From Ferrovaceae bacterium (GTDB taxonomy: Bacteria; Pseudomonadota; Gammaproteobacteria; Burkholderiales; Ferrovaceae): a stretch of 64,000 nucleotides of DNA. The DNA lies in the NCBI GenBank assembly GCA_027449685.1, contig DAIDLC010000004.1, forward strand, positions 62,001 through 126,000, read 5' to 3'. This document shows positions 6,067-10,219 of the stretch, in pieces (position 1 is the stretch's first letter; the number at the start of each line of letters is the position of its first letter). The notes beneath the pieces were generated by a model, which worked only from the letters and a program-made list of their open reading frames with translations, was not told the DNA's origin and did not search any database. The position numbers and the translations under genes are program-made.

Positions 6067-7603
6067 CCGGGCCGGTTGGCGGGAGATTGCCTCGGGATTT
6101 GATATAGTCGCCCAGGTCCTTGTCGGCACCTTGCACGTGATCCACCACCCAGTTCTTCAACAATTGGGAGGCCAGCATCTCGTTGGATTGACTCAGGGAT
6201 TCCCGGATGCGCGCCAGGGTGTTTTTCATGACTTCATGCCCATGCTGGTGCGCGACGCGATCGGGGTAGTCCAGCTTTTCCATGAGGGCATCTTCGGTGG
6301 CAAAATGCTGGTCCACACGCTGAAAGATTTCCTCAAAGATGGTCCAGACGCCGTCCCGATTTTCGCTTTTGAGTGAGCGATTCATTTCGTTGACCAGGGT
6401 AACCAGCTCCTGGTGTTCCCGGTCGATGTCGGTCACACCCACCAGATGACTGGCGTCCAGGGTAATCCAGTCGCTTTGGGCAGGGTGGATGACTGGCATG
6501 GCCTGGGAAAAGCTGAACTGGTGCTTGCCCTGCTTTTTACTTTCGTACATGGCGCTATCTGCCGCCGAGAGTAAGGTATCCATTTCAAAACCGTTGTCGG
6601 GATATAGACTGATGCCGATACTGGCGCTGACCTGGCAGGCGGGGTGGGCCGTGAGGGGAATGGGGGGCTGCAGGGACTGCAGGATCTTTTGGGCAATGGG
6701 AATGGCCTGCTCGGGGCGCTCCAGGTCGGGCAGGACCAGGGCAAACTCATCCCCCCCCAGGCGTGCCACGGTATCGCTTTCACGCAGGCAGCTCAACAAG
6801 CGGTGGGCCACTGTTTTGAGGACCACATCCCCGGCCTGGTGGCCGAGTTCATCATTGATGGCCTTGAACCCATCCAGGTCGATAAAGAAGAGCGCCACTT
6901 TCTTGTTGCTGCGCATGGCCTGAAGAATTTCCCGGGACAAGCGGTCAAAGAACAGGGAACGGTTGGGCAGGTTGGTTAGAGGGTCAAAATTGGCTTGACG
7001 CCAGATGAGCTCTTCGGCGCTTTTTTTGCGGGTGATGTCCACGAACTGGGCTACATAGCGCTGAATTTTTCCTGTGGTGTCGCGGGCCGCATTGATGGTG
7101 AGCCATTCCACATAGGGGGTGCCATCCTTGCGCCGGTTGATGATTTCTCCTTCCCAGTGGCCCATGGTGGTGAGGCTATGCCACAGGTTTTGGTAGAACG
7201 CCTGATTTTGCAGTCCCGAACTCAACAGGTTGGGTTTCCGTCCAATGGCTTCTGCCGCCTCAAAGCCGGTGATGGCGGTAAAGGCCGGATTGACGTCCAG
7301 AATCGTCCCGAGCGCATCGGTGATCAGCATGGCCTCGCTACTATGGTCAAAAACCAGCGCGGACAAGCGCAGGGACTCCTGGGTGTTGTGCAGGCGATTC
7401 AGGTTGAGCGTGTAGGGCCGATAGACATAAAAATAAAAAATGGGAAAGAGCAGGATGGTGAGCAACGTGGCATCCAGCAGCGTGGCTGCTCCGTCGGACA
7501 TGGGGGGCAGCCAGCCCAGCAAGACCATGGCCAGGGATTCGATGGCAAACACCGAGACTGACAGAAGGGTCAGGATCCTCCAGGGAGAGAGATTGGAATT
7601 CAC
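6041..7603 (-). CDS. Membrane PAS-GGDEF diguanylate cyclase with C-terminal bacteriohemerythrin domain
   Basis: 520 residues. Two transmembrane helices lie at about residues 8-60 with almost no periplasmic loop. A PAS domain follows (about 75-200, LSALVFDHSSEAMLITDALG), then a GGDEF domain with an intact RLGGDEFALVLPD active site (about 205-375), so c-di-GMP synthesis is expected. The last 130 residues are a hemerythrin domain with the di-iron ligand pattern: DREHQEL, DQHFATEDALME, HQHGHE and VDHVQGADKD. This suggests oxygen or redox control of cyclase output (inference from related Bhr-DGC proteins). The GTG start uses the last G of a 12-G run; no other start exists in this frame before a stop. 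Removing one G would join the frame to an upstream ATG at 7664. Confidence 0.88.
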   Translation of the reverse strand: MNSNLSPWRILTLLSVSVFAIESLAMVLLGWLPPMSDGAATLLDATLLTILLFPIFYFYVYRPYTLNLNRLHNTQESLRLSALVFDHSSEAMLITDALGTILDVNPAFTAITGFEAAEAIGRKPNLLSSGLQNQAFYQNLWHSLTTMGHWEGEIINRRKDGTPYVEWLTINAARDTTGKIQRYVAQFVDITRKKSAEELIWRQANFDPLTNLPNRSLFFDRLSREILQAMRSNKKVALFFIDLDGFKAINDELGHQAGDVVLKTVAHRLLSCLRESDTVARLGGDEFALVLPDLERPEQAIPIAQKILQSLQPPIPLTAHPACQVSASIGISLYPDNGFEMDTLLSAADSAMYESKKQGKHQFSFSQAMPVIHPAQSDWITLDASHLVGVTDIDREHQELVTLVNEMNRSLKSENRDGVWTIFEEIFQRVDQHFATEDALMEKLDYPDRVAHQHGHEVMKNTLARIRESLSQSNEMLASQLLKNWVVDHVQGADKDLGDYIKSRGNLPPTGPATSPSTGP

Positions 7604-7614
7604 CCCCCCCCCCC
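7603..7614. repeat. Poly-C/poly-G tract (12 bases) at the diguanylate cyclase start
   Basis: Twelve C residues on the plus strand read as twelve G on the coding strand, directly abutting and partly forming the GTG start of the GGDEF-hemerythrin gene. With 12 G the ATG at 7664 runs out of frame. With 11 or 14 G it would read MHNRLLNRLRRPSSISLGGG straight into the cyclase. Mononucleotide tracts of this length at a 5' end are typical of slipped-strand phase variation, but a homopolymer miscall must be excluded. Confidence 0.85.
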
Positions 7615-7916
7615 AGTGAGATGGAGGATGGGCGGCGTAAGCGATTCAGTAGCCTGTTGTGCATGGGTTGAGGGACGGGACGGTCTTTGGTTTTTATAAT
7701 TTGTAATAAATATTCTCAAAACAATAACCGTCTGCAGTCTAGCATCGAATGGCTAAAGCCGTCCAATGCTGTCGTGTCATGTGGGGAGCGGATCAGAAAT
7801 TGGCACTAAACGCCTAATGTCGTCCCAATGCTGCGGTGCCAAACGCAGGGCAGATCAGGAACGAGCGCTGAGGGCCGTCAGAGCCGCAGGCCCGGGCAAG
7901 CGCGTTGCCAGACTCT
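7604..7916. other. Intergenic stretch with an imperfect direct repeat
   Basis: No gene is recognised between the diguanylate cyclase start and the end of the DUF4156 gene. Two imperfect copies of about 38 bases occur at 7761-7798 and 7822-7859, sharing GTCC(C)AATGCTG and the ending AGATCAG or GGATCAG. The region 7680-7740 is AT-rich and may contain the promoter of the minus-strand cyclase gene. Confidence 0.45.
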
Positions 7917-8255
7917 TCAGGGGAGGGGACAGTGATAGACCCCGAAGGTCTGTTTTCCCAATTCCGGGCGATCCCCGGGCACTAGCGCGTTGCCACCAGC
8001 GTCCAGGGCTGCGTTGCGTGCCAGTTGCAATAAATCGCCATTGATGGCTTCCACGCTGCGACTGACGAAACCGACCTGGGCCAAGACCGAGACGGTGGTG
8101 TTGCCTTGGAACTGGCACTGGGCCACTTGATTGGCGGCCAGTAGCGGAATGTTTTGCGAGCCTGGGCGAACATCGATCAACTCATTGGCACAGCCAGCCA
8201 GAAGCACCAGTGACGTGGCGTATAAAAAAAAGGGACGGGCAAGGGGAGAAGGCAT
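7917..8255 (-). CDS. DUF4156-family lipoprotein
   Basis: 112 residues from the reassigned ATG at 8255, which has CAGGAG 9 bases upstream and yields a proper lipoprotein signal ending in VLLAGCANEL. The longer ORF start at 8324 would bury this signal. The mature part has the DUF4156 pattern: a short strand, VAQCQFQGNTTVSV, then LLQLARNAALDAGGNALVPGD and a terminal FGVYHC, with two Cys that may form a disulfide. Members are small envelope lipoproteins of unknown role. It lies 47 bases downstream of sppA on the same strand and is probably co-transcribed. Confidence 0.75.
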   Translation of the reverse strand: MPSPLARPFFLYATSLVLLAGCANELIDVRPGSQNIPLLAANQVAQCQFQGNTTVSVLAQVGFVSRSVEAINGDLLQLARNAALDAGGNALVPGDRPELGKQTFGVYHCPLP

Positions 8256-8302
8256 GAGCAGAGACTCCTGAACAAAAAAAGACCATGCGCCCTCAACCAA
8301 GG

Positions 8303-10219
8303 CTAGGGCGCAACGCATAGGCAATGGGCCAGCACCAGGCTGCCCGGGCGCTGTTGATCCGAATTCACCCGTTCACCCAAAAGGCGCAAGAAATCCAGTG
8401 ACCCCTTCGTGCTCAGGGCAGGGGGGGTAGACCAGAGGTTCTGGGCGGCTCCGGGTGCTCCGGCCAACCACTGCCAACGCTGCGCTGCGGCCAACAAAGT
8501 GCGCAGGGCTCGGGCATTTTGCAGCAGAGCCAGCCAATGCTCCAGGCCACGGGGTGGTGGGTCCCGATAGTCCACCTGATAGGCCGAACCCAGATGAGCC
8601 CGCTGGGCGGCTGCCTGGATGGCGTCCTGAAGAGAGCCCAGGCGGTCCACCAGGTGCCGCTCCAGGGCTTGTTGTCCAGTCCACACGCGCCCCTGGGCCA
8701 CGGCTTCGATCTGTTCCCGAGGCTGTTTGCGTGCCACGGCAGTTTTTTGGGTGAAATCGGCGTAGAGATGATCCACGTTGCTTTGGATCATGGATTGCAG
8801 CCGGGGGTCCAGGGGGCGCAAGGGATTGGAGGCATCGCTCAGCCAGGTGGTGGTGACCCCGCCGGGGTGAATGCCCAGCTTGCCCATGAGCTTGTCGGCC
8901 GTGGGGAGCAGTGCAAATACCCCGATGGATCCGGTGACCGTGGTGGGGTCGGCAATCAGTTCGTCGGCCCCAAGGCCCATCCAGTAGCCCCCCGAAGCGG
9001 CCAGATTGCCCATGGAAACGACCACGGGCTTACCCGCGGCGCGGGTAAGCACCACTTCGCGTCGAATCAGCTCCGAGCCGTAGGCACTGCCACCCGGAGA
9101 GTTGATCCGGAGTACCAGGGCTTTCACCTGGGGGTCTTCCCGGGCCGTGCGGAGGAGGTCTGCAGTGCTCAGGCCCCCAATGGTTCCGGCTGCTGCTTCT
9201 CCGTCGTGGATTTCGCCCTCGGCCACGACCATGGCAATGTGCGCCCCCGCGCTGTCTGGTTTCAACTGGTCCAGATAGTCGTCCAGGGAAATCTGACGAA
9301 AATCATGCCCCTCGGAGTCGGCCACTCCTTCCTTGATTTGCGCCTGGCGCAAGTCCGAAGCCGTCTTGAGGACGTCCACCCAGTGCAGATCCAGGGCCAG
9401 ACGGGCTTCATCGCCGCCGGCTTGTTCCAGTAAATGGGGTAAGCGGGCAATCTCCTCGTTCAGAGTACCGGGGGCCAGATGGCGGGCCTGTTCCACCGTT
9501 TGGGTGTAGGAGAGCCACAGCGCGTCCAGCAACGTGTGATCGGCCTCCTGCGCCGCAGGCGAGGGCTCGTTGGCGATGAACGGTTCGCCAAAGCTTTTGT
9601 AGGTGCCCACGCGCACCAAATGCACGGTTACCCCCAGCTGGTCCAACGCGTCCCGATAGTAATTGCGGTAATGACCAAAACCCTCCAGTTCCACTTGCCC
9701 CATGGGGTCCAGAGCGACTTCGTCGGCATGCACCGCCAGATAGTATTGGCGCTGGTCATAATGACTGCTCCAGGCAATGACGCGCTTGTGATGAGCCCGA
9801 AAACGATCCAGTGCTGCCGCCACCTCGTGCAGGATGGGCAATCCGGTTACCCGCAGATCGTCCAGATGCAGGATGACGCGGGTAATTTTGGCGTCCTGCC
9901 CGGCCGCATCCAGAGCCTGCAGCACATCGCGCAATTGAATATCTGCCTGCTGCTGAGGGTTGTTGGCCATTTGCGAGAGCAGCAAGCCATCGGCACTGGC
10001 TGCATGCTGTTCCACCAGTTGGCCACTCAAATCCAGGACCAGGGCTGTGTTGGCTTGCAAGCGGGGGGTACGATGCAGCAGGGCGTAGGTCAATACGCCC
10101 GCCAGAAGACACACAAACAGGAGATTGAGGGTTAGCCGTCGGGTAGCGTCCAGAGCGTGCCATAAAAACACCAACAACGCGCGTAACACGGTGAATAAGC
10201 CACGAAGAATCGGTTTCAT
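8303..10219 (-). CDS. sppA: Signal peptide peptidase SppA, 67K type
   Basis: 638 residues, the double-domain form as in E. coli (about 618). One N-terminal transmembrane anchor (LTLNLLFVCLLAGVLTYALL, about residues 28-48) holds two ClpP-like domains in the periplasm. The general-base lysine is in VGTYKSFGEPF in the N-terminal domain, and the nucleophilic serine is in NLAASGGYWMG in the C-terminal domain. This split catalytic dyad is characteristic of SppA. It degrades cleaved signal peptides in the inner membrane. The ATG overlaps the stop of the upstream psiE-like gene by 4 bases (ATGA), so the two are translationally coupled. Confidence 0.93.
   Translation of the reverse strand: MKPILRGLFTVLRALLVFLWHALDATRRLTLNLLFVCLLAGVLTYALLHRTPRLQANTALVLDLSGQLVEQHAASADGLLLSQMANNPQQQADIQLRDVLQALDAAGQDAKITRVILHLDDLRVTGLPILHEVAAALDRFRAHHKRVIAWSSHYDQRQYYLAVHADEVALDPMGQVELEGFGHYRNYYRDALDQLGVTVHLVRVGTYKSFGEPFIANEPSPAAQEADHTLLDALWLSYTQTVEQARHLAPGTLNEEIARLPHLLEQAGGDEARLALDLHWVDVLKTASDLRQAQIKEGVADSEGHDFRQISLDDYLDQLKPDSAGAHIAMVVAEGEIHDGEAAAGTIGGLSTADLLRTAREDPQVKALVLRINSPGGSAYGSELIRREVVLTRAAGKPVVVSMGNLAASGGYWMGLGADELIADPTTVTGSIGVFALLPTADKLMGKLGIHPGGVTTTWLSDASNPLRPLDPRLQSMIQSNVDHLYADFTQKTAVARKQPREQIEAVAQGRVWTGQQALERHLVDRLGSLQDAIQAAAQRAHLGSAYQVDYRDPPPRGLEHWLALLQNARALRTLLAAAQRWQWLAGAPGAAQNLWSTPPALSTKGSLDFLRLLGERVNSDQQRPGSLVLAHCLCVAP

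Follow-up and report, generated by a model that had tools for sequence, protein, structure and literature searches.

We analysed a 64,000-nucleotide stretch (G000:C4:62001-126000, here called the window) of G000, a draft assembly (1.86 Mb, 100 contigs) that is 83% complete. The minus strand of the window carries at 7603-6041 a gene with a GTG start, encoding a 520-aa membrane-PAS-GGDEF-hemerythrin protein. We found Pfam matches to PAS, GGDEF (2.1e-51) and a C-terminal Hemerythrin domain (5.4e-8), and two transmembrane helices were recognised by eye. The translation preserves both the GGDEF motif and the RxxD I-site (RESD-TVARL-GGDEF), which places the protein among the diguanylate cyclases. 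The diiron ligand set of bacteriohemerythrins consists of seven residues: five His, one Glu and one Asp (PMC9388753). Aligned to DcrH-Hr (2avk), the hemerythrin part keeps the ligand positions, as matched by eye, and is of the bacteriohemerythrin type. The product is predicted to be an oxygen/redox-sensing c-di-GMP signalling enzyme.

The start of this gene is marked by a run of exactly 12 G on the coding strand (7614-7603, minus strand), whose final G also opens the GTG codon. An earlier note on this DNA had described such a run ending inside the GTG of the PAS-GGDEF-hemerythrin gene, and the description is accurate. We identified no other G/C run of at least 9 nt in the window, and no A/T run of at least 9 nt. 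In the whole 1.86-Mb genome the tract is the longest of 22 distinct G/C runs of at least 9 nt (18 of 9, 3 of 10 and 1 of 12), and most of the others are Gly codons in the interior of long ORFs. A long mononucleotide run in the coding start or promoter region is one feature of contingency loci, and the 12 G ending in the GTG provide it.

The last G followed by TG forms a GTG start whatever the tract length. At the present length this GTG is the in-frame start, as had been claimed: its frame is open for 14 codons upstream, containing no ATG, GTG or TTG, and the next in-frame starts downstream (7552 and 7528) both lie within the first membrane helix. An ATG at 7664 opens a leader of 50 nt ahead of the tract (7615-7664, minus strand). 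At 12 G, this ATG begins an out-of-frame ORF of 105 aa ending at 7347. It reaches the gene frame only with 8, 11 or 14 G; the joining with 11 or 14 G that had been predicted for this ATG is therefore correct, and 8 G has the same effect. With 10, 13 or 16 G, a case absent from the earlier note, the leader ORF terminates at a TGA overlapping the GTG (GTGA). The upstream ATG by itself is unremarkable, because 39% of shuffled leaders contain an open upstream ATG no more than 61 nt away.

To compare the two starts, we calculated the pairing with the anti-Shine-Dalgarno (anti-SD) sequence, which was -9.8 kcal/mol for GTG 7603 and +0.7 for ATG 7664. For the GTG it varied with tract length, from -2.0 at 8 G to -7.8 at 10 G. 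With about 10 G or more, the tract amounts to a strong SD-like element, whereas no SD precedes ATG 7664. The net score for the GTG (opening plus SD) had its minimum at 12 G (9.9) and 13 G (10.1), and was 11.4 at 11 G, 11.2 at 14 G and 15.7 at 10 G, a loss against the optimum of ~1.3-1.5 kcal/mol at 11 or 14 G and ~6 at 10 G. At the assembled length, the net score was 9.9 for the GTG site and 5.4 for ATG 7664, which lies in an unstructured region. Among 42 long ORFs the best starts had a median of 4.8, so the GTG site is poorer than that of most genes. The energy model behind these scores is crude, with no start-codon or spacing terms and a poor parameterisation of poly-G pairing, and does not settle the choice between GTG and ATG.

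A C-rich stretch, CCATCCTCCATCTCAC (7616-7631, minus strand), belongs to an mRNA arm for which pairing with the G-tract is predicted. The fold of the leader mRNA was not more stable than those of shuffled sequences (z 0.74). No riboswitch or leader RNA was found in 7300-8400 at the Rfam gathering thresholds, and the leader sequence gave no match to viral contigs.

Comparison across related genomes revealed a second species of the genus (G001) that keeps the G-run at this place, with 23 G as assembled. In G001, the upstream DUF4156 lipoprotein gene (Pfam) is 75% identical to that of the window, and the intergenic DNA past it aligns at 67% identity per aligned base. This alignment retains a promoter-like block, a Fur-box-like site, the ATG and then the G-run at the corresponding point. 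The 23 G, whose number is made unreliable by a chimeric join there, are the sole G/C run of at least 10 nt in G001. After them, the contig continues into unrelated DNA of 71% GC, whose peptide matches Epimerase only below threshold. The remaining part of the G001 gene, from residue 255, is on a separate contig, its 3' part being 77% identical to the window's gene; the middle, on the downstream side of the tract, is absent from all contigs. We read the contig that carries the run (G001:C3; L165 1-307), which looks chimeric with foreign 71% GC DNA next to the 23 G, as a chimera created in assembly through poly-G. In G002, the third genome of the genus and only 65% complete, we did not find the locus.

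Twelve consecutive identical columns at 67% identity have a p of about 0.008. Given ~15 runs of at least 12 nt in 32 family genomes (64 Mb) and a sole run of at least 10 in G001, the probability that a G-run landed on this site by chance is of the order of 1e-6. Thus either the two species inherited the tract from their ancestor or it has been maintained; G001 is the one informative congener on which its conservation rests. Conservation of a G-run in the start region is what a functional tract, or one maintained by slippage, would show. Conservation of the run in relatives, a further feature of contingency loci, was seen in G001 only.

Upstream of the leader, we found a Fur-box-like site, TGAGAATATTTATTA (7704-7718, minus strand), with 11/14 matches, which ranks first among the 7-1-7 matches of the window. 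The homologous site in G001, CGATAATCATTATCA, has 13/14, and G000 carries two Fur-family genes. Iron (Fur) regulation of the hemerythrin cyclase is a reasonable lead from these motif matches. A possible promoter (TTGGAC, 19 nt, then TAGACT/TAGTAT preceded by TG; 7766-7736, minus strand) was recognised by eye and is conserved with G001; a consensus promoter scan did not call it. In the stretch that separates the cyclase promoter from the lipoprotein gene, the window exceeds G001 by ~140 nt (7767-7916), and this extra DNA contains a weak terminator-like hairpin at 7814-7802.

We tentatively interpret the G-run as a conserved part of the start region of a probably Fur-linked cyclase gene, serving mainly as the Shine-Dalgarno element of the GTG, with its length tuning translation. 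The run would act mainly as the Shine-Dalgarno of the GTG that it abuts, and this action would be balanced by a hairpin between the G-run and the C-rich leader. Slippage by 1-2 G would shift translation by degrees, with 12 G near the modelled optimum. Tract length would also alter the fate of ribosomes arriving from the upstream ATG, which would be fused to the gene, stopped atop the GTG or left out of frame; ribosome loading at the ATG, if any, would add a period-3 effect. Length variation would be likely in a run of 12 G, as inferred from the rise of the homopolymer indel rate with run length (PMC5854121). Phase variation of the tract is offered here as a hypothesis.

It is possible, though rather unlikely, that the run is a neutral relic, that is, a genus-ancestral G-run grown long through slippage bias, with no regulatory role and an incidental 5' location. 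Markov simulations (orders 1-5) gave 0.4-2 runs of at least 12 nt per 1.86-Mb genome and ~0.01-0.07 per window. Since such models expect about one run of 12 per genome, tract length alone is weak evidence, and we dropped the rarity of the run as an argument. Long G/C runs are also common enough in the family to suit a neutral origin, with nearly 30 of at least 11 nt in the 32 genomes, mostly at unrelated places (unrelated genes or contig ends). What a neutral relic accounts for less well is that the run was retained uninterrupted while its flanks fell to 67% identity, and that it is placed exactly on the start codon.

The survey of the other runs gave no sign of a general poly-G contingency repertoire, either in the genome, where they are mostly Gly codons, or in the family, where they lie in unrelated genes or at contig ends. 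We also rejected a 13-G run of a sister genus as an equivalent tract (G003:C4:2682-2694; L250 3307-3319, G-strand), since it lies ~660 nt upstream of a related TM-PAS-GGDEF cyclase gene and not at the start of that gene; this run precedes a short PAS-like ORF. In another family genome, two contig ends (L273 and L274; G019:C84 and C87) carry G-runs of 17 and 12 nt, each preceded by an identical 40-nt flank. Poly-G thus breaks or forks the assembly at a second site, and the two runs are possibly two lengths of one tract.

The search for MutS (PF00488) found none in the 83%-complete G000. We rejected loss of mismatch repair as a cause, since MutS is present in both congeners and its absence from G000 is probably an assembly gap. 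G005, which is 99% complete, is likewise without MutS.

The earlier note had proposed a contingency switch, in which ATG 7664 is the real start, 11 or 14 G are ON, the assembled 12 G are OFF or low, and slippage toggles the cyclase. We consider this unlikely, even though the frames behave as claimed and the ATG region is unstructured in the model (net 5.4). The ATG has no SD, and the GTG with its strong SD is usable in every state, so that an OFF state would leak. In favour of the switch, the ATG is present in G001 as well, its frame staying open as far as the run, and the leader is Arg-rich; the leader codons, however, lack coding-type conservation. Between G000 and G001, 5 codons of the 17-codon leader are identical, none is synonymous and 11 are changed. 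In the 3' part of the gene, 129 codons are identical, 72 synonymous and 61 nonsynonymous, and in the lipoprotein gene the corresponding numbers are 46, 35 and 27. Synonymous changes thus make up 0/11 of the changed codons in the leader and 72/133 in the gene, which suggests that the leader is not conserved as a protein; N-termini drift, so the comparison is no more than suggestive. The length of the N-terminus is not decisive between the two starts either: homologous N-terminal modules of other genera start ~23-38 residues ahead of the conserved TM1 Glu, and the distance here is 21 residues from the GTG and ~41 from the ATG at 11 G, both slightly beyond that range.

The persistence of the GTG at all lengths, together with a run that is itself a strong SD and the modelled optimum at 12-13 G, suggests that slippage would more plausibly tune translation than toggle it. 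A change in tract length would then be predicted to act as a graded dial and not as an ON/OFF switch. Of the contingency interpretation, the tract itself stands, being real, located in the translation-start region and kept in a second species; the clean two-state ON/OFF proposed to arise by slippage is not supported, in view of the surviving GTG, the ATG without SD and the leader without synonymous changes. The alternative raised in the same note, an effect on the ribosome-binding site, fits better than ON/OFF through the modelled length dependence, at the precision of a crude model.

Quite unlikely, in our judgement, is a three-state slippage dial, in which ribosomes from the upstream ATG would be fused to the cyclase at 8, 11 or 14 G, stop and re-initiate at its start codon at 10, 13 or 16 G, and run past it out of frame at 9, 12 or 15 G, these states being added to a poly-G ribosome-binding site that is itself tuned by length. 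Such a dial would give an uncultured environmental lineage heritable heterogeneity in an iron-/redox-linked c-di-GMP source.

Very improbable is an artefact, either an error of assembly or base calling in the tract length (a true 11, for example) or a two-colour poly-G read artefact in the congener: G001 is a metagenome assembly whose contig turns into unrelated 71% GC DNA right after the 23 G, and G000 is also a draft (100 contigs, 83% complete), but an artefact in a separately assembled genome, G001, would not hit upon the homologous base and place there the sole run of at least 10 nt, and a wrong length would not undo the conservation of the run.

Judged from its sequence, the poly-G start region of this cyclase gene would belong to a known kind of element; it resembles homopolymer contingency loci, with two of the four defining features found. 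Like the poly-G/C contingency loci of Campylobacter and Neisseria, it has a long 5' G-run where 1-nt changes alter the frame or the start context. In contrast to those loci, the start codon here survives all lengths, and the target is an intracellular second-messenger enzyme rather than a surface structure. Hypermutable homopolymer tracts were previously found in putative diguanylate cyclases of V. cholerae (9C, vc274080_01721) and V. fischeri (9T, VF_1200); they varied in mismatch-repair-deficient mutation-accumulation lines, and heterogeneity in biofilm control was proposed (PMC5854121). These tracts share with ours a mononucleotide run in a diguanylate cyclase gene, whereas the run described here is placed on the start codon.

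A G-tract also occurs in the 5'-UTR of M. tuberculosis espR, where one extra G alters RNA folding and translation and function was shown (PMC11898584). That tract lies 144 bp upstream, where transcription begins, while the run described here touches the start codon and is known from sequence alone. Phase variation of c-di-GMP enzymes was reviewed as a recent theme (PMC11868660). The phase-variable c-di-GMP phosphodiesterases PdcB and PdcC of C. difficile (genes pdcB and pdcC) are controlled by invertible DNA (PMC9286219), and our locus would share with them phase variation tied to c-di-GMP, with a homopolymer in place of inversion and a synthesising in place of a degrading enzyme. Coupling of a hemerythrin domain to c-di-GMP turnover, presumably redox/O2 responsive, is represented by V. 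cholerae Bhr-DGC and Ferrovum Bhr-HD-GYP (PMC9388753). In Bhr-DGC the hemerythrin is N-terminal to GGDEF, whereas the protein described here is 2TM-PAS-GGDEF with a C-terminal hemerythrin.

In the literature searched, we found no report of the combination of features described here. The earlier note called a contingency switch on a hemerythrin-type cyclase an unusual logic; homopolymers in cyclase genes as such have a precedent in Vibrio (PMC5854121). A tract that varied in nature would take homopolymer contingency beyond the surface antigens of host-associated bacteria, to a redox-sensing c-di-GMP enzyme. It would also provide a locus of an uncultured environmental bacterium whose mix of alleles could be counted directly from metagenome reads.
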